A stretch of 64,000 nucleotides of DNA from Brevibacillus composti (GTDB lineage Bacteria; Bacillota; Bacilli; Brevibacillales; Brevibacillaceae). The notes beneath the pieces are model-generated. The model saw only the letters and a program-made list of their open reading frames with translations, was not told the origin of the DNA and searched no databases. A program made the translations under genes and the position numbers. Shown here in pieces: positions 3,741 to 58,297 of the stretch (positions are counted from its first letter, which is position 1; the number at the start of each line of letters is the position of its first letter). The stretch lies in assembly GCF_016406105.1 (NCBI RefSeq), contig NZ_CP066308.1, positions 817,501 to 881,500 on the forward strand, in the 5' to 3' direction.

Positions 3741-5246
3741 TCAGGAATCCGTCTCCTTACGGGAGGGACGCTGCAGGATACTGGCTCGCCCCTCCCATAA
3801 TCGCCACGGCGTGCGCAACAGCACTTTGGCCATATCCTTGAGAACGGGCGGAGAGAGCGGTTCGAGAAAATAGACGCCAAATGAACGCGTGTTTGCAAAA
3901 AAGAGCAAAACGCCAATGAGCATCATCATGAAGCCAAATATGCCCAGGAATGAACAGAAAAGCAGAATGACGATGCGTAAAATGATGATAGAAGCGACCA
4001 TGCTTTGGTTCACAATGGTGAAGGTACCCATCACAGAGATGGCGATGATTACCAGACTGCCGGGGGCGGTCAAGCCTGCGGAGATCGCTGCTTGCCCTAC
4101 GATCAGACCGCCGACGACGGACAGGGTTTGGCCGATTGCGGTCGGCATGCGCAACCCCGCCTCGCGGAATAATTCGAAGAGCAGCAGCATGAGCAAAGCC
4201 TCCAGGGGGGCGGGCATCGGAACCCCCTGACGCGAGATCACCATTGTCGCAATCAAGATATACGGAAGCTGATCCTGGTGATAGGTGACCAGTGCCACCC
4301 AGAATCCCGGCAAAAACAAAGCGATCCCTACGCTGAACAGCCGTATGATGCGAACGAAGACCACCTGATGGATCGAAACGTTAGCATCCTCCGATGTATT
4401 CAGGAGGTAGGTCATGTTGGACGGAGCGATCAAAACGGTAGGCGAACCGTCGACCAGGATGGCAAAACGGCCTTTCAGCAAGCTGCTTGCGACGAAGTCC
4501 GGTCGGCCGGTATATTCATACAAAGGCAACAACGTAAAGGGCGTGTCGAGCAATAGCTCTTCCAGCTGAGCGCTTGACACGACACCCGTACTCTTGACAG
4601 AGGAAAGCCTGTAGCGAATATCCTCTACCAATTTCGGATCGATGGTATCTTGAAGGTACAACAGGCCGACCTTTGTCCGGGTGTGGCTTCCCAGGATAAA
4701 TGTCTCGTAATGGAGCAGCGGTGTCTTCAGCCGCTTTCGAATCAAAGCGACATTGGTGTGGATATCCTCGATAAAGCCGTCCCTTGGACCGCGTACGGAG
4801 ACTTCCGTGTTGGGCTCCTCTGTATTTCGTTCGGGGCGGTCGGTTAGGTCCAAACTGTAGACGGCGCCCCACTTTTCAAAGTACAGGATCACGTTTCCAT
4901 TAAAGACGAGATTGGCTAAGGTGTCGGAATCCACATGCTCCAGTTTTTTGATGAGGAAAGGGCGCTTCTTTTCCAAGTCGTCTGAACTGGCTATCTCTCC
5001 CGACCGAAACAGCTCACTTAATCTGGGGAGGAAGTGCTCCATGACTTTGCCTTTGTCACATAATCCATCCGCGAAAGTCAGAAAGAGATCAAACTCATTG
5101 GGAAGGAGACCGTAATGCTCCACAGAGACGTCCCCACAACCGGCAAAAAGCCGTCGGATGGCATCCGCACTCAAGGGCTCCAGAGATGGCAGCTTTCCAC
5201 GCACATTCATGCGATCAAAGGGACTCTGGCGTTGATTGTTGTTCAT
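3741..5246 (-). CDS. gerAA: Spore germination receptor A subunit, GerA family
   Basis: 501-residue A subunit of a germinant receptor in the inner spore membrane. A hydrophilic N-terminal half (about residues 1-280) contains the conserved GPRDGFIEDIHTNVALIRKR segment. It is followed by several hydrophobic segments at about residues 290-470 (for example IRLFSVGIALFLPGFWVALV and MLIGVLLFFANTRSFGVYFL). The start at 5246 has a good ribosome site (AAAGGAG, 7 bases upstream) and overlaps the end of gerAB by 32 bases. The order B-A-C differs from the A-B-C order of Bacillus subtilis gerA. Confidence 0.93.
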   Translation of the reverse strand: MNNNQRQSPFDRMNVRGKLPSLEPLSADAIRRLFAGCGDVSVEHYGLLPNEFDLFLTFADGLCDKGKVMEHFLPRLSELFRSGEIASSDDLEKKRPFLIKKLEHVDSDTLANLVFNGNVILYFEKWGAVYSLDLTDRPERNTEEPNTEVSVRGPRDGFIEDIHTNVALIRKRLKTPLLHYETFILGSHTRTKVGLLYLQDTIDPKLVEDIRYRLSSVKSTGVVSSAQLEELLLDTPFTLLPLYEYTGRPDFVASSLLKGRFAILVDGSPTVLIAPSNMTYLLNTSEDANVSIHQVVFVRIIRLFSVGIALFLPGFWVALVTYHQDQLPYILIATMVISRQGVPMPAPLEALLMLLLFELFREAGLRMPTAIGQTLSVVGGLIVGQAAISAGLTAPGSLVIIAISVMGTFTIVNQSMVASIIILRIVILLFCSFLGIFGFMMMLIGVLLFFANTRSFGVYFLEPLSPPVLKDMAKVLLRTPWRLWEGRASILQRPSRKETDS

Positions 5247-6324
5247 CAGTCTGCTCCTTTCTGCGTGAGAATAGGGCTAGCAGCGTAAATGTTACAGACA
5301 AGAACAGTGACAAAGCCAAAAGGCCGGGCAGCAGATAACGACTAAGAATCTGGTAGAACCAAATGTCATTGTAGGGCCATAAGGAAGATCCGATCGCGAG
5401 CAGACTGATCAGGACGAGAAAACGAACGCGTCCTCGGCTTTGCGGTAGCCGAAAAAGATCCCCCAGGAGAAAAAGAACGAGGGAGACCCGGATAAAAGCG
5501 CCGCTAAACCACTGATAAATGCTGAAAAAGTCGACATGCTCGATATAGAGGCCGATTTTGACCAAGCGCCACTCCTCATAGGCGGGAAAACGGAGCTTGG
5601 CCGCTTCCTGCGGGCCAAATTCGGCGATAGCTCCGATCAGGGGACCCAAGGTCAGCCACACCTGGATAAAACCAAGGAGCGCCATCTTTTTGAAGTTTAC
5701 CTCGGGGCCGATGTACGGTGTCAGCAAGAGGAACAGCAGGATCTCCGAGAAGCCCGTGCCCGCGTAGACCATGCCCCGGACAACAGGTTCCCAGCCAAAT
5801 TCCAGCATGGGCAGGAGATAGGAATAATCCTTGTACTGGAAGTTGGTCGTCATCACAAAAAAGCCGAGAATCACGACGACGGGGAGCAGGAATACAGAAA
5901 GCATGGAGATGGAACGGATACCGAACAGCGCGTTAATGAGACATACCGCGCCAAAGACGACGGCGAGGATGATCATCGGGATTCGCGGTGCAAAGGTCAG
6001 ATTGACCCAGATTAAGATGTCTTTTATCGTAATGACCGCAATCATGAACAGGTAGAGGGCCAAAAGGGAGGTGAGAAGCCAGTTGATTCCCCGTCCATAT
6101 TGACTTTGCACCCATTTCAAGATCGGTTCCTTGCCGCTGACATGCTGCGTAAAGACGATCATCCCGATCAGCAGCAAGTACAGCGGCAGTATGGCGAGAA
6201 CCGAAATCCACGCATCCCGCCCGGCTGCATCGAGCAGATGAGGGATGATGATCACATGGTTGATCAAGCCATTGGACAGCATGAGGATAAACACGACTTG
6301 CACAAATGATATACCGTTTCGCAT
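5215..6324 (-). CDS. gerAB: Spore germination receptor B subunit, GerAB/ArcD/ProY transporter family
   Basis: 369-residue integral membrane protein with about ten hydrophobic segments, from FVQVVFILMLSNGLINH to LLALSLFLSVTFTLLALFS. GerAB proteins belong to the APC transporter superfamily and are thought to bind the germinant. It is the first gene of the minus-strand operon gerAB-gerAA-gerAC and overlaps gerAA by 32 bases. A second, broken ger locus starts on the opposite strand 157 bases away. The promoter, expected to be sigma-G dependent, lies in the divergent region 6325-6480 and was not resolved. Confidence 0.9.
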   Translation of the reverse strand: MRNGISFVQVVFILMLSNGLINHVIIIPHLLDAAGRDAWISVLAILPLYLLLIGMIVFTQHVSGKEPILKWVQSQYGRGINWLLTSLLALYLFMIAVITIKDILIWVNLTFAPRIPMIILAVVFGAVCLINALFGIRSISMLSVFLLPVVVILGFFVMTTNFQYKDYSYLLPMLEFGWEPVVRGMVYAGTGFSEILLFLLLTPYIGPEVNFKKMALLGFIQVWLTLGPLIGAIAEFGPQEAAKLRFPAYEEWRLVKIGLYIEHVDFFSIYQWFSGAFIRVSLVLFLLGDLFRLPQSRGRVRFLVLISLLAIGSSLWPYNDIWFYQILSRYLLPGLLALSLFLSVTFTLLALFSRRKEQTDEQQSTPESL

Positions 6325-6480
6325 AGGGTACCCGCCAGACTTTTCCTGATTTTCCTTTCAAGTATGTCCGTTTGGAGAGGGAGTATGCAAGAGCGCAGGC
6401 GGCGGGCCTCGCATGCATATTTTGGAACGGGATTCCTCACGATAAAGGGAAAATACTATTTTTCCCAAGGTAGGACGCCT

Positions 6481-7507
6481 ATGAAAAATCTTCGTAATTG
6501 GCTCAGACGAAAGCAAGAGACGGCGCGACAGCCGAAGGGGGCAGCGTGGACAGCGAACCGGAGGGGTTCGATCAGCGTCAGTTTGCAGGAGAACGTTCAG
6601 GAACTTCAACGGATTTTTTCTCAGACGCCCGATCTTGTCATTCGCCATTTGCACAATCAGGCCAACGATGAAAAAGCAGTGCTGGTCTACCTGAGTGGAT
6701 TAGCAGATAAAAATCAGGTCGACGAACATATCCGCGTTGACGGTAGGCGGGAAGATTCAGATCATCGCCTTGAGCAAACGGCTGGTCCAGCATCCCGATT
6801 GGTATACGCTCCTCGACACCATCTACCGGGATCCCCGCTTGACGATCAATGCGCGAATCGTCGTTGTCGATGGTCCTTTGCATGAAATTTTCCACTTAAA
6901 CCCGCCGGACAAGCCGCGTTTGCCCATCCATCTGACACAGCTGCTGGATACGGCCAACCGCCGGAATTTGACGGTCAAGACCAGCGCTCTGGAATTGCAA
7001 CGGATGATGAACGATAAAGGGACGACTCCGGTGGTGACAGAGTTTAAAAAGGTAATTTTGAGGTTTGGCAAAAAGGGAGAGTTGACGATCGTGTCGAAAA
7101 TCCCTGACCATCTAAACAAGAATCGGTGGCTCAAGCCATTGCTGAGCTATTTTGTGAAGTACGTGGATAAAGAGGTAAAGACGAGTTATCAGGATAATCA
7201 ATTCCACTTCGACGTGGAGTTAAAGATGGAAATTTCGATCTCAGAGCGATACTCTTCCTTTGACGTGGCCACTCACAAGAAAGAATTGGAGCAAGTGCTG
7301 GAAAAGGATCTGAGCCAACGGTATCAAAAACTGATCGCCACCTTCCAAAAGCATCAGGTGGACCCGGTTGGTTTCGGCGTATATGCCCGGGCGTATCAGT
7401 ACAAGGAATGGAAAAAGGTCGAAGAGGATTGGCCAAAGGCTTTTGCCCATGCAAAGGTTCGGATCAAGCCGATCGTTTCCATCAAAGGATTTGGCGTGAT
7501 CGAATAG
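6481..7507 (+). pseudogene. Chimeric remnant: gerAA start fused out of frame to gerAC end
   Basis: Two different germination genes are joined here. From ATG 6481 (ribosome site near 6470) about 85 codons encode a GerAA N-terminus, including the SVSLQENVQELQRIF and DLVIRHLH segments and ending near YLSGLADKNQVDEHI. At about 6735-6750 the recognisable sequence changes frame by +1 and becomes a Ger(x)C protein that lacks its signal peptide and lipobox. It starts near KIQIIALSKRL and runs to the stop at 7507 (about 255 residues). The middle of gerAA, any gerAB and the start of gerAC are missing. A single deletion in an A-(B)-C operon would produce this. The TTG at 6737 could start the gerAC part, but no lipoprotein would result, so function is unlikely. 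Confidence 0.75.
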
Positions 7508-51367: not shown

Positions 51368-51871
51368 ATGCGAATTATTGATTTAACGAATCAAAGAATC
51401 GGCAGATTGACAGTATTAAGTCGCTCAGGAAATATCGGAAAACACCCAGCATGGTTATGTAAATGTGATTGCGGAAAAACAACGACAGTGAGAGGCGACC
51501 ACCTAAGAAATAATTTAATCAGAAGCTGTGGTTGCCTTGAAGAAGAAAACAGAAAAAATGGAGCAAATACCAAACACGGTGGCAGAAATTCTCGACTTTA
51601 TGAAATTTGGTCTGGAATGCTCAAACGGTGTAACAACCCAAACAGTCACTCTTATGAGAATTACGGTGGCAGGGGTATTAAAGTTTGTGATGATTGGTTG
51701 GATTTCTCGAAATTTCGTGATTGGGCATTAAAACACGGATATTCTGATTCACTAAGTATTGATCGAATCAATAACGACGGAAATTATGAACCATCTAACT
51801 GCAGGTGGACAGATGCAAAGACTCAAGCTAATAACAGGAGAAAAAGACGAAAAAGTCTTTCAGTGGGGTAA
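51368..51871 (+). CDS. HNH endonuclease, homing-type (AP2/HNH)
   Basis: 167 residues. An N-terminal zinc-ribbon-like part (WLCKCDCGKTTTVRGDHLRNNLIRSCGCL) is followed by YEIWSGMLKRCNNPNSHSYENYGGRGIKVCDDW and the C-terminal SIDRINNDGNYEPSNCRWTD, the usual layout of phage free-standing homing endonucleases. The gene is clearly more AT-rich than the helicase and primase genes on both sides and fits between them with 3 and 4 bases of spacing. Confidence 0.85.
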   Translation: MRIIDLTNQRIGRLTVLSRSGNIGKHPAWLCKCDCGKTTTVRGDHLRNNLIRSCGCLEEENRKNGANTKHGGRNSRLYEIWSGMLKRCNNPNSHSYENYGGRGIKVCDDWLDFSKFRDWALKHGYSDSLSIDRINNDGNYEPSNCRWTDAKTQANNRRKRRKSLSVG

Positions 51872-51875
51872 AACC

Positions 51876-54116
51876 ATGGAGCACAAACTCGATCTTATTG
51901 CACTGCTGGCCTATATCGACCCAGCTCAATTGACATACCAGGAGTGGCTTAGTGTAGGCATGGCCCTCAAATACGAGGGCTATACCGCAGCTGACTGGGA
52001 TAACTGGAGCAAACGTGATCCGGCCCGGTACCATCCCGGTGAGTGCTTCAAAAAGTGGACGACGTTCGAAGGGGCTGGCACACCTGTTACGGGGGCAACG
52101 ATCACGCAGATGGCCAAGGACAACGGCTGGGTGCCACGTTCTGATCGAGATGGCCGGGAACTCGGATGGGATGACGAGATAGCTGGCGATTACGTGGTGG
52201 TCGATAAGAACTGGATCGAGGGCAAGGAGATCCACGAGCCAGCCGTTTGGAACCCAGTGCAGCAATTGACCACATACCTGCAGACGCTCTTCGAGGCATC
52301 TGAAAATGTCGGCTACGTTACGGAATCGTGGCAAGACGATGACGGTAAGTACCTACCCACCAAAGGGGCGTGGGACCGAACTGCCGGCGAGCTGATTGAA
52401 CTGCTACATATGTGCGAAGGTGACATCGGAGCAGTGCTCGGTGACTATAATCCAGCAGCCGGTGCGTGGATCCGGTTCAACCCGCTGGATGGCAAAGGCG
52501 TCAAAAACGAAAACGTGACCGAATTCCGGTACGCCTTGGTCGAGTCCGATACCATGGACATTGAAAAGCAGCATGCGATCATGCGCGAGCTGGAGCTGCC
52601 AATAGCTGTCCTCGTATACAGCGGCGGGAAGAGTCTCCACGCCATCGTGCGAGTGGAAGCAGCCAACTACGACGAGTACCGCAAACGGGTGGACTACCTG
52701 TATAACGTCTGCAAAAAGAATGGGCTGAATATCGACAACCAAAATCGCAATCCATCCAGGCTGTCGCGAATGCCGGGCGTCGAGAGGAACGGGAAAAAGC
52801 AATTCATCGTCGACACCAACATCGGGAAAGCGAGCTGGGCCGAATGGCACGAATGGATCGAGGGCATCAACGACGATCTGCCAGATCCAGAGAGCTTGGC
52901 GAACTATTGGGATAACATGCCGTCATTGGCTCCGCCGTTAATTGAGGGTGTGCTCCGGCAAGGCCATAAAATGCTGATGGCTGGGCCGTCGAAGGCCGGC
53001 AAGTCTTTTGCCTTGATTGAGCTTTCCATAGCCATTGCCGAGGGAGAGCGATGGTTGGGCTGGAAGTGCACGCAGGGGCGAGTCCTCTACGTGAATCTGG
53101 AGTTGGATAGTGCAAGTGCGCTTGATCGCTTCAAAAGTGTCTATCAAGCACTGGGACTGGAGCCAAGGAACATTGATAAGATCGACATCTGGAATTTGCG
53201 CGGGAAATCAGTCCCGATGGACAAGCTGGCGCCGAAGCTGATCCGGCGCGCGGCCAAAAAAGGCTATATCGCCGTCATCATCGACCCAATCTATAAGGTC
53301 TTGACTGGTGATGAGAACAGCGCGGACCAGATGGCGCACTTTACCAACCAGTTTGACAAGATCGCGACAGAGCTGGGAGCCAGCGTCATCTACTGCCACC
53401 ACCATTCAAAAGGTGCCCAAGGGGGCAAAAAGTCCATGGACCGCGCCAGCGGAAGCGGCGTATTTGCCCGCGACCCAGACGCGCTCATCGACCTCGTGGA
53501 GTTAGATATTACGGAGGATCTGCTCAAGCAGGAGGAAAACAAGGCCGTTTGCGCGGTGTACCAGCAGCTCTTTGAAAAATTCAATCCAGACTATTTGGAT
53601 GAACATGTATCCCAAGATGATTTGTTGAGCGCCAGGGCGATGGAAGACCACGCTAAACGGGCAATACCGGCACATTTGAATGCAGCGCAGGAAAGCATCA
53701 AGCAGGCCGTGAAGAGCGTCCGCATCCGGACGGCATGGCGCGTAGAGGGCACATTGCGAGAGTACCCGAAATTCGAGCCCATCAATATGTGGTTCCAGTA
53801 TCCGATCCATAAGGTGGACGAGGTGGGCAGCCTGAAGGACATCGAGCCGGAAGGGGAAGCCCCAGCGTGGAAGAAGGCAGCAGAAAAGCGAAAATCGTCA
53901 GCCCAAAAGGAACGTCGGAGCAAAGCCGAGCAGTTTGAAGACGCGGTGAACAATTGTAATTTCGGGGAACCACCGACAGTAAAAGATGTTGTCGAATGGT
54001 TTGGAAAATCTGGCAAAGAGGTGTCTGAGCGGACTGTGAGAGACTGGATCAAAAAGTACGGATATGTTTTGCAAGATGGTTTGATCGTAAAGGACGATGG
54101 CGCAGATCATGATTAA
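51876..54116 (+). CDS. Phage primase-helicase (PriCT-2, AEP-like, RecA-like ATPase)
   Basis: 746 residues. Domains in order: PriCT-2-like (about 1-65: AYIDPAQLTYQEWLSVGMAL), an archaeo-eukaryotic-primase-like part (about 150-345) with YALVESDTMD, VYSGGKSLHAIV and RNPSRLSRMPGV, then a RecA-like ATPase (about 355-570) with Walker A MAGPSKAGKS and Walker B AVIIDPIYKV and the HHHSKGAQGG loop. A winged-helix-like end (KEVSERTVRDWIKKYG) closes it. ATG 51876 is chosen; 39 further in-frame codons upstream lie inside the HNH gene. Confidence 0.85.
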   Translation: MEHKLDLIALLAYIDPAQLTYQEWLSVGMALKYEGYTAADWDNWSKRDPARYHPGECFKKWTTFEGAGTPVTGATITQMAKDNGWVPRSDRDGRELGWDDEIAGDYVVVDKNWIEGKEIHEPAVWNPVQQLTTYLQTLFEASENVGYVTESWQDDDGKYLPTKGAWDRTAGELIELLHMCEGDIGAVLGDYNPAAGAWIRFNPLDGKGVKNENVTEFRYALVESDTMDIEKQHAIMRELELPIAVLVYSGGKSLHAIVRVEAANYDEYRKRVDYLYNVCKKNGLNIDNQNRNPSRLSRMPGVERNGKKQFIVDTNIGKASWAEWHEWIEGINDDLPDPESLANYWDNMPSLAPPLIEGVLRQGHKMLMAGPSKAGKSFALIELSIAIAEGERWLGWKCTQGRVLYVNLELDSASALDRFKSVYQALGLEPRNIDKIDIWNLRGKSVPMDKLAPKLIRRAAKKGYIAVIIDPIYKVLTGDENSADQMAHFTNQFDKIATELGASVIYCHHHSKGAQGGKKSMDRASGSGVFARDPDALIDLVELDITEDLLKQEENKAVCAVYQQLFEKFNPDYLDEHVSQDDLLSARAMEDHAKRAIPAHLNAAQESIKQAVKSVRIRTAWRVEGTLREYPKFEPINMWFQYPIHKVDEVGSLKDIEPEGEAPAWKKAAEKRKSSAQKERRSKAEQFEDAVNNCNFGEPPTVKDVVEWFGKSGKEVSERTVRDWIKKYGYVLQDGLIVKDDGADHD

Positions 54117-54391
54117 TTCCGCCGCCGCCATGAAGTAATATACGGCAAGAACCATGATAACCGCCGCCGCCGCAAATAAAACTTCGGCGGCGAACACCAT
54201 CATTTTATGGTTGCCGCCGCCGAAAAATCAGAATCACGCCTTATATATAAATATATCGCGCGCCCGTAGTAATAAATTAAAGATTAAGTCAGGTAAACAG
54301 TAATCGTCAGAGAGAGAAGGTTGCCGCCGCAGGTTTGCGGCAACCCCTTCTCTCTGCCGAACTGACACCCGCGCGAGAAAGGAAAAATAAA
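54117..54391. other. Candidate phage replication origin: GCC repeats, hairpins, AT-rich stretch
   Basis: A non-coding 275-base region after the primase. Runs of (CCG)n lie at 54118-54130, 54161-54173, 54212-54224 and 54321-54332, and inverted at 54183-54192. An 18-bp hairpin with 15 matches pairs 54183-54200 and 54207-54224 (TTCGGCGGCG...ACCAT). An AT-rich stretch follows at 54240-54300. A second hairpin pairs 54311-54327 with 54337-54355 (AGAGAGAAGG, TTGCCGC). Iteron-like repeats, an AT-rich element and the adjacent primase gene suggest an origin. Confidence 0.5.
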
Positions 54392-54661
54392 ATGCCAAAA
54401 AAAACGAATGAGAAATACTGGGAAAATGAAACGGGAGAATTGATTGAATTCGGCAGTTTCTTTATGAGGTGCTATGACAAAGCTGGAAAGCTCCAATTTG
54501 GAGTAAAACTCCGCGATCAAAAATCAGGTGAATGGGTTTATGCCGTAAAATTCGTACTCGATCGTGAATCCCTGTTCTCCAGCGACGAAGCGCCAAGTTA
54601 CTTGCGCGGCACGATCGACGATTGGGAAGAGATGCTCGAAGGTGAACGAAATGACGACTGA
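54392..54661 (+). CDS. Hypothetical phage protein (89 residues)
   Basis: ATG 54392 behind AAAGGAAAAATAAA begins MPKKTNEKYWENETGEL. An acidic, mixed alpha/beta small protein (GVKLRDQKSGEWVYAVKFVLD). It overlaps the RusA gene by 11 bases. No known family. Confidence 0.7.
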   Translation: MPKKTNEKYWENETGELIEFGSFFMRCYDKAGKLQFGVKLRDQKSGEWVYAVKFVLDRESLFSSDEAPSYLRGTIDDWEEMLEGERNDD

Positions 54662-55049
54662 ATTTTTTATGCCGATGAAAAAAGTGCCGACCGTTACCCA
54701 TCAGCAAAAACAGGTAACGGTCGTGAAGGACAAGCCAGTATTCTACGAACCAGCCGCGCTGAAAGCTGCGAGAGCGAAGTTGATGGCTCATCTTGGGCAA
54801 CACAAGCCAGAACGTCCATACCATCGCCCGGTTCGCCTGATCGTCAAATGGTGCTTTCCGATCACTGGCAAGCGTCAGGACGGGGAGTACAAGGCCACGC
54901 GGCCCGACATCGACAACAGCCAGAAGCTGCTGTTTGACTGCATGACCGACTTGGGATTTTGGAAGGATGACGCGCTGGTGGTCAGCCTGATCGCGGAAAA
55001 GTTTTGGGCCAGGTTGCCAGGGATCTACGTCCGGATTGAAGAGGTTTAG
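54651..55049 (+). CDS. rusA: RusA-family Holliday junction resolvase
   Basis: 132 residues, start ATG 54651 behind GAAGGTGAACG. The RusA core has LIVKWCFPITGK, RPDIDNSQKLLFDCMTDLGFW and KDDALVVSL, with conserved acidic residues that bind Mg2+. It cuts branched DNA formed in recombination before packaging. Confidence 0.9.
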   Translation: MTTEFFMPMKKVPTVTHQQKQVTVVKDKPVFYEPAALKAARAKLMAHLGQHKPERPYHRPVRLIVKWCFPITGKRQDGEYKATRPDIDNSQKLLFDCMTDLGFWKDDALVVSLIAEKFWARLPGIYVRIEEV

Positions 55050-57766: not shown

Positions 57767-58297
57767 ATGGCAGGACGACCCAGTAAACCGGTCCAGCTGA
57801 TCAAGTTGGAGGGAAAAAGTCATCGGACAAAGTCAGAACTGAAACACCGCGAGAAGGCGGAGAAGTCACTTTACACCGGCACGACCTTCAAGGAGTCGCC
57901 CGCCGTGAAGGCGGATCCCGTCGCTCACCGCGAATTCCTGAGGCTGAAGAAGCTTTACAAGTCGATCGAGTTTGTCGACGGCCTTGATGAACAGATCATC
58001 AACCGTTACTGCATGCTGATCAGCCAGGAACATGCATTGGCGAAAATGATGGAGCGGATGCGGATGGACATCGACCAGGTAGAGGACGTAGAGGATCGTA
58101 TGCGGATATACGAGTCGATCGCCGGCGTTACGGACAAAGTCATGAAGACCAGGGACATGCTGCTCAAGCTGGAGGATCGGCTGTTCCTTAACCCCACGGC
58201 ACGGATCAAATCGATCCCGAAAATGCCGGCGGAGGAAAAGAAAGAGTCAGCGATGGCTCAATTCATAAACAGACGAGCTGGTGGCCATGCCCCATGA
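57767..58297 (+). CDS. terS: Terminase small subunit, P27 family
   Basis: 176 residues starting MAGRPSKPVQL with the typical KLEGKSHRTKSELKHREKAE segment; the centre is helical (YCMLISQEHALAKMMERM) and the end holds basic residues. It recognises cos DNA and loads the large subunit. Site AGGAGGTGAGAAC is excellent. It overlaps terL by 17 bases. Confidence 0.92.
   Translation: MAGRPSKPVQLIKLEGKSHRTKSELKHREKAEKSLYTGTTFKESPAVKADPVAHREFLRLKKLYKSIEFVDGLDEQIINRYCMLISQEHALAKMMERMRMDIDQVEDVEDRMRIYESIAGVTDKVMKTRDMLLKLEDRLFLNPTARIKSIPKMPAEEKKESAMAQFINRRAGGHAP

Follow-up and report, generated by a model that had tools for sequence, protein, structure and literature searches.

Organization of the locus

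The region studied here (54117-54391) is the gap between the stop codon of a primase-helicase gene (54116) and an ATG at 54392 in the open reading frame list of the window, which confirms the original prediction that 275 noncoding bases adjoin the primase. By the window we mean the whole 64-kb stretch of DNA that was analyzed (G000:C1:817501-881500, in a 4.47-Mb genome). A prophage surrounds the region. Family profiles identified, on the 5′ side, a Sak4-like annealing protein, a DEAD-type helicase, and an HNH endonuclease, followed by the primase-helicase; on the 3′ side, the 89-aa gene is followed by RusA, a sigma-like factor, the terminase subunits, the portal, and the major head protein (Table 1). 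The HNH endonuclease gene (51368-51871; phrog_374, 8.1e-72) lies directly 5′ of the primase gene and is possibly a homing-type insertion between the helicase and primase genes. The 89-aa protein had no family matches in profile searches that included Pfam and phrog. In several relatives whose hairpin is long, the candidate origin is followed by similar, KYWENE-like protein starts. An NCBIfam profile search returned no matches.

Table 1. Coordinates of the candidate origin, its proposed initiator, and flanking genes (window positions)
Feature	Coordinates	Strand	Basis and remarks
Primase-helicase, proposed initiator, 746 aa	51876..54116	+	Pfam, phrog, PDB profile, structure model
C-terminal helix-turn-helix, residues ~700-740	53973..54095	+	Structure model; recognition helix 718-727 with R722-D723
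Iteron half-site 1, ATGATTAATTCCGCCGCCGCC	54109..54129	+	Sequence, repeat family D1, pattern scan; starts inside primase gene, overlaps stop codon
Iteron dyad, CGGCAAGAACCAT (54143-54155) + ATGATAACCGCCGCCGCCGC (54154-54173)	54143..54173	.	Sequence, repeats, pattern scan
Iteron dyad, TTCGGCGGCGAACACCAT - CATTTT - ATGGTTGCCGCCGCCGAA	54183..54224	.	Inverted repeat I2
AT-rich stretch, TTATATATAAATATAT, proposed melting site	54241..54256	.	Longest A+T run in region; adjoins repeats
Three-stem hairpin, candidate single-strand initiation (priming) site	54306..54366	+	Structure parse, covariation, cmsearch
Downstream 89-aa gene	54392..54661	+	ORF; bounds candidate origin, not counted in it
RusA	54651-55049	+	Pfam 5.2e-29; bounds candidate origin
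Terminase small subunit	57767-58297		In window; ~3.4 kb downstream of candidate origin

The primase-helicase and its C-terminal tail

The primase-helicase is a full-length member of phrog_2597 ("DNA primase"), which matches residues 1-736 with 1248.8 bits. Pfam recognized a PriCT_2 domain (residues 9-80; 2.9e-19) and an AAA_25 domain (9.9e-30). The only credible PDB profile match was between the helicase domain (~335-650) and RSF1010 RepA (1g8y; 1.9e-6), and RepA was also the top Foldseek match (1nlf_A; E 4.5e-9) of a structure model with a pLDDT of 83.5. VIA-align scored RepA at Z 21.5 (1olo_B; rmsd 3.4, 236 residues aligned), with T7 gp4 tied within 1 Z (5ikn_F 21.0; 20.9). Matches to the helicase domain filled the fold search, from which a shallow first model (pLDDT 61.9) was kept out. 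These comparisons suggest that the helicase domain is closest to RSF1010 RepA.

The center of the protein (~120-330) had no match in Pfam or among PDB sequences. Its invariant residues (E223-S224-D225, S249-G250, H255, and D287) presumably correspond to AEP-like active-site motifs, and this part of the chain is a probable archaeo-eukaryotic-type primase. The annotated record of FP_Lugh names the homologue "AEP Primase-helicase." In the structure model, the tail forms helices 702-711 and 718-727, followed by strands 730-733 and 736-739; the helix-turn-helix gave weak Pfam matches to such domains, below the cutoffs.

Repeats and an AT-rich stretch follow the primase gene

All five GCC/CCG runs that had been predicted were found, at 54119-54129, 54161-54173, and 54213-54222, with CGGCGG at 54185 and GCCGCC at 54323. 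The region holds eight GCCGCC/GGCGGC hexamers, a number reached by 2 of 2,549 sliding 275-base placements, both of which overlap the region; placements away from it had at most four. The iteron-like repeats of the original prediction are real, but their unit is a dyad, with GCCGCC/GGCGGC outer halves and ATGRT/AYCAT inner halves, and not (CCG)n alone. They lie mostly in the noncoding gap, as predicted, except that the first unit begins within the primase gene. A repeat search and a pattern scan placed half-sites at 54109, 54143, 54154, 54185, and 54207. Matches to the half-site pattern cluster at 54109-54222, with seven lone matches elsewhere in the 64 kb, and a degenerate inverse partner of half-site 1 may lie at 54100-54110, inside the primase gene. 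The near-perfect hairpin to which two of the runs had been assigned corresponds to the inverted pair 54183-54200/54207-54224, with 18-nt arms that are 83% complementary. Its counterpart in close relatives consists of GCGGCAATCAT..ATGGTNGCCGC-like units. Within the region of the window (locus L083), one 9-mer occurs three times, compared with at most twice in 30 shuffles.

The AT-rich stretch was also present as predicted (Table 1). Folded as a single strand, the region scored better than all of 200 dinucleotide shuffles (z of -4.76 as DNA and -4.90 as RNA). The GC-skew analysis suggested with the original prediction was uninformative: neither the window (at 54 kb) nor the complete relatives BCJA1c and EFC-1 (at the origin position) showed an inflection. 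Skew tracks gene direction, and it was dropped as an origin marker.

The layout recurs in relatives and is retained when a gene intervenes

Primase relatives were drawn from IMG/VR, GTDB genomes, genomes of the same genus, and phage records. Full-length loci (187 of 202) were thinned to 113; many IMG/VR loci of the second fetch were contigs already in the first. A three-stem hairpin search used 109 of the 113 and a residue test 112, the rest having too little downstream sequence. Removal of duplicates, short loci, and loci without a stop left 88 distinct regions. Named hosts in GTDB were Brevibacillus, Paenibacillus, Cohnella, Bacillus, Oceanobacillus, Streptococcus, Enterococcus, Agrilactobacillus, and Aerococcus, along with Lachnospiraceae and Clostridia MAGs, and the phage records added Flavonifractor and Faecalibacterium.

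By inspection of the sequences listed, many Firmicutes relatives have, 3′ of the primase gene, repeats followed at the equivalent place by a TATATAAATATA-like or TATATACTACGTATATA-like stretch and then by a GC-rich hairpin. In 54 of the 88 regions, including that of the window, the recurrence of a 9-mer exceeds that in each of 30 shuffles; the other 34 regions fall short of this. Units within one phage are alike. Across phages, the repeats diverge widely (GCCGCC..CAT; GGGAAAAACTCGA; GTGACAAAAACAT; GGACAAACTGG; GTGTCAAAAA).

Eight loci on five contigs (L014, L015, L017, L019, L020, L130, L131, and L133) have other sequence directly after the primase gene. In L019, the intervening sequence is a reading frame of 195 aa (6236-6823), and the end of this frame overlaps the first repeat. 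All eight loci carry GCC/CAT repeats ~550 bases past the primase stop, and in L019 the AT stretch and hairpin then follow. Because this group keeps the repeats, and L019 the AT stretch and hairpin as well, the candidate origin appears to be a block of its own and not the tail of the primase message. Recurrence of the layout beside the primases of relatives, together with retention of the block when a gene intervenes, lends support at the sequence level to the original prediction that the region may be an origin.

No origin is marked in the stretch examined of five annotated phage records (BCJA1c, Vegas, EFC-1, FP_Lugh, and Castelnaud). Two of these records annotate a "hypothetical protein" over the repeats (Paenibacillus phage Vegas, L204:3784-3906; Flavonifractor phage Castelnaud, L207:3762-4019); these are probably not real genes. 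In L018, L092, and L132 (~4001-6950), the primase match is ~700 bases longer than in relatives, suggesting a possible interruption of the gene by an insertion close to its start.

A three-stem hairpin lies beyond the AT-rich stretch

The second large hairpin of the original prediction is present; its extent was corrected to that given in Table 1, and it proved to have three stems and two 3′-side bulges. An outer GTCAG/CTGAC stem is followed by a 6-nt 3′ bulge, a AGAGAGAA/TTCTCTCT stem, a 2-nt 3′ bulge, a GGTTGCCGC/GCGGCAACC stem, and a 9-nt loop. The repeat search reported its arms as 54304-54327/54337-54360 (24 nt, 83% complementary).

A strict three-stem search of 109 regions gave 61 that beat all four of their own shuffles and 48 that did not; 43 were without a structure. 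A simpler fold scan took 85 of the 88 distinct regions, of which 6 lacked the apical stem; the median z over the other 79 was -3.38, with 52 below -3. We then considered 33 of the 63 hairpins found, picked by eye as alignable. In this alignment, whose outer and apical stems (but not the middle stem) were preselected for Watson-Crick pairing, 87.6% of cells pair, compared with 41 to 55% when the columns are slid by 1 to 3, and there are 53 double-change cells versus 13.8 in shuffles. The unselected middle stem pairs in ~85%. RNAalifold predicted only 3 pairs on the same alignment, so the covariation rests on the structure that we named.

A covariance model of the 33 hairpins was run on 834 kb from 82 sources and matched 26 times up to E 1. 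All were at origin positions, and six were the same hairpins on the opposite strand. At E <0.01, 19 of the 82 sources had a match (L047 and L209 being one phage, L195 and L201 being alike, and some being near relatives of model members); all of these were on the + strand, starting 156 to 304 bases after the primase stop where this was measured. The window hairpin, itself in the model as L083, scored 31.1 bits (E 1.9e-4) and was the sole match in the window, and the single match in complete BCJA1c was its origin hairpin. The remaining 63 sources, including EFC-1, FP_Lugh, and Castelnaud, had no match at E <0.01. In these, the hairpin presumably takes another form or is missing; by eye, many phages with aspartate at the position of D723 (the D class, below) have a shorter one.

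G-U pairs make up 17 of 195 paired cells in the unselected stem and 2 of 379 in the outer and apical stems. The argument that depletion of G-U pairs shows the hairpin to be DNA and not RNA was dropped, as the depleted stems are those preselected for Watson-Crick pairing.

The block sits between codirectional genes and is thus probably transcribed, and the hairpin covariation, with the G-U pairs of its unselected stem, suits RNA equally well. The repeats could then be operators for the helix-turn-helix of the tail, controlling transcription of the replication operon or limiting initiation, with the hairpin serving as an RNA attenuator or processing site and replication starting elsewhere. We regard this as unlikely. 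The repeats lie downstream of the primase gene, not upstream; promoter-like sites in the region numbered 0 against 1.1 expected; terminator-like sites were absent from the + strand, with one on the - strand against 1.0 expected; and no Rfam family scored above threshold, the single subthreshold match being a Plasmodium snoRNA. Moreover, origins usually have an AT-rich stretch next to their iterons.

A different role for the hairpin, as a cruciform substrate of RusA in recombination-dependent replication or concatemer processing, would leave the iterons as the true origin. RusA is encoded nearby in the window, and 0 to 2 annotated genes intervene in BCJA1c, Vegas, EFC-1, FP_Lugh, and Castelnaud. 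In the 109 regions, however, bulges on the 3′ side gave the better structure in 56 and bulges on the 5′ side in 20, with 33 tied (26 of them without a structure either way), an asymmetry that suits a folded single strand over a symmetrical cruciform. RusA is not known to depend on a fixed sequence of this type, and we consider the cruciform reading very unlikely. The hairpin is treated below as a candidate priming site.

The repeat sequence tracks the primase tail

Repeat 6-mer distances were compared with distances over 60-residue segments of the primase in partial Mantel tests controlled for residues 1-660. The set comprised 67 nonredundant phages, thinned from 83, and excluded L014, L015, and L017 (displaced origin) as well as L032 and L042 (internal stop or X). 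Partial r was 0.557 for residues 661-720 and 0.535 for residues 686-745, the latter value being equaled in none of 2,000 permutations; the other eleven segments gave -0.08 to 0.165. Against two control DNAs, the C-terminal segment gave partial r values of 0.15 and 0.147, each exceeded in 0 of 2,000 permutations, indicating that a little shared history remains.

The residue at the position equivalent to D723 was then related to the repeats in 112 phages, 11 of which have a residue other than R, N, or D. All 22 phages with R have more GACA than GAAA, 33 of the 37 with N have more GAAA than GACA, and GCSG leads in 36 of the 42 with D. The exceptions were L052, L170, L165, and L186 for N and L095, L177, L171, L168, L195, and L193 for D; L095 has an inserted stretch, so that the part measured is probably not its origin. 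These motif counts replaced hand-written repeat patterns, which left some loci unclassed. The difference in GACA between R and N phages had a p of 2e-11 in the repeats versus 0.005 in coding control DNA, and that in GCSG between D and N phages had a p of 1e-13 versus 1e-6. Given the weaker class differences in the coding control, base composition contributes to the association, most of all for the D class.

On a FastTree tree of the protein body only, R and N interchange 11 times. Eight independent R/N pairs on supported branches went the expected way 7.8 times on average and the opposite way 0 times (median p 0.008). Corrected for the tree, the contrast of D with the rest did not reach significance (5 pairs, median p 0.125). 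Locus L089 is a natural swap: its body is 83% identical to that of the window protein, and it has an RNRIK tail with GGGAAATTCTCGA repeats, which is the N class. Arginine reading G and asparagine reading A are common contacts. The repeats co-vary with the C-terminal helix-turn-helix and its linker far above other parts of the protein, as expected if the C-terminal domain is the binder, as originally predicted, and the comparison favors the view that this helix-turn-helix would bind the dyad iterons.

The tail and the repeats, being adjacent, could in part be transferred jointly by recombination. Carried to its limit, this would explain the whole association by the exchange of a single linked block in which tail and repeats do not bind, and contiguity of the coding end and repeats in most relatives examined and the frequent exchange suggested by the 11 R/N changes both fit such a reading. 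Joint transfer is probably not the sole cause, however, because the correlation for residues 601-660 is low and because a residue-to-base rule exists; direct readout predicts that R goes with GACA and N with GAAA. In addition, the five contigs with another gene between primase and repeats keep the repeats that the tail predicts: the C-terminal helix of this group, ERTVRDWIKRYGY where listed, predicts GCC/CAT. We give the linked-block explanation little probability and prefer recognition of the iterons by the tail.

A proposed one-protein replication origin

From sequence comparison, we consider it likely that the region is the replication origin of the Brevibacillus prophage, working in four steps and containing an iteron/tail specificity cassette. 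In the first step, as the covariation suggests, the C-terminal helix-turn-helix of the primase-helicase would bind the dyad iterons (54109-54224). The AT-rich stretch, judging from its composition and position, would then melt, and the helicase domain, whose kinship with RSF1010 RepA is seen in the matches above, would load onto the opened strand. In the last and least certain step, modeled on RSF1010 RepB′ at ssiA, the GC-rich hairpin would fold on the exposed strand, where the first primer would be made by the protein's own primase domain or by the host primosome. Iteron sequences differ among phages and the C-terminal domain matches them, which suggests that the pair acts as a replicon-specificity cassette. 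One chain would recognize iterons, unwind, and prime, like a fusion of RSF1010 RepC, RepA, and RepB′.

More tentatively, we propose that this fused replicator owes its origin specificity largely to one or two recognition-helix residues (R, N, or D at D723 giving GACA, GAAA, or G+C), that tail and origin are swapped as a cassette between phages, perhaps escaping titration of the initiator by resident prophage origins, and that the hairpin is the phage's own primer site. It is extremely unlikely that the region is instead a packaging site (cos or pac) read by terminase: although it is on the terminase side of the primase gene, ~3.4 kb upstream of the small subunit gene in the window, the block stays at the primase end while the separation of that end and the small subunit gene varies (~3.7 kb in BCJA1c, 2.1 kb in EFC-1, and 1.4 kb in FP_Lugh), and its repeat sequence follows the tail of the primase.

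Comparison with known replication systems

The original view that the arrangement is unlike known origins found less support, in that the organization resembles those of the Streptococcus phage Sfi21 origin and RSF1010 oriV. Iterons that vary with their initiator are of a known kind. For SaPI Rep and lambdoid O, the DNA-binding domain of the initiator and the iterons co-vary between relatives, although these protein families differ from that in the window, where a single chain unites the iteron reader, the helicase, and a probable primase. Phage P4 alpha recognizes its origin through a C-terminal domain, but its helicase is of SF3, whereas that of the window protein is RepA/RecA-type, and the P4 origin has a different layout. 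Alpha is described as combining primase and helicase in one protein (PMC7145576), and origins located after primase genes are reported for Gram-negative PICIs (PMC10111431).

The Sfi21 origin is annotated in GenBank record NC_000872 (34487-34784), and the account in PMC6356513, citing Foley et al. 1998, describes a 302-bp noncoding element as the origin. Like the candidate origin, this element lies where a replication ATPase gene ends and overlaps the 3′ end of that gene, and by eye its GTTACTNAGTTAC-like palindromic repeats flank an AT-rich stretch on both sides. The Sfi21 initiators, in contrast, are a Prim-Pol and a Pox_D5 helicase, and the window primase is not of that type; BLASTP found no significant similarity between the 271-aa Prim-Pol and the window primase-helicase. 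The Sfi21 element also folds without a GC-rich three-stem hairpin and has no match to the hairpin model. The Sfi21 case shows that an element so placed can be an origin, though the proteins are unrelated.

The oriV of RSF1010 (IncQ) has iterons, which RepC binds. The RSF1010 system is the closest working precedent and shares with our model a RepA-kind helicase, a specific initiator, and hairpin sites for its own primase. RepC is described as the initiator, RepA as the helicase, and RepB′ as priming at ssi sites (PMC4538821, PMC4434180); ssiA is given as 40 nt long, with nt 7-27 forming a hairpin, and RepB′ makes contact with the 5′ tail and with the first pair (PMC4434180, PMC4538821). RSF1010 uses three proteins, whereas the Brevibacillus prophage would use one chain. 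RSF1010 also has two ssi hairpins, one per strand, whereas the window has one modeled hairpin, for which the + strand match alone passed E 1; membership in the IncQ replicons was rejected because no such two-strand ssi pair was found. Among the window proteins covered by general family scans, none was named as RepC-like, and the helix-turn-helix sits in the primase chain.

Searches of the open-licence literature found no description of this primase-linked origin family; as far as that literature shows, the family, its hairpin, and the residue-to-repeat rule are new. If the proposal is correct, a wide family of Firmicutes phages has a candidate origin that can be recognized from its sequence, together with a compact one-protein replicator and a candidate hairpin primer site. 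The phages also supply many naturally occurring pairs of initiator domain and binding site, from which a rule of protein-DNA recognition can be derived.

For Sfi21, resident origins have been suggested to titrate the initiators of incoming phages (PMC6356513). If resident origins do so, phages may be competing with one another by diversifying their iterons, and near-identical prophage replicons in one cell should cross-talk. The window prophage has such a counterpart: a second prophage on the same chromosome (L087) encodes a primase 99.6% identical to that of the window (869376-871613 for L083 and 1429502-1431739 for L087, both on G000:C1). The two intergenic regions are 87% identical overall, with the iteron half nearly unchanged and the outer parts of the hairpin altered. 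Another genome of the genus (G002) has three copies, which belong to two iteron classes.
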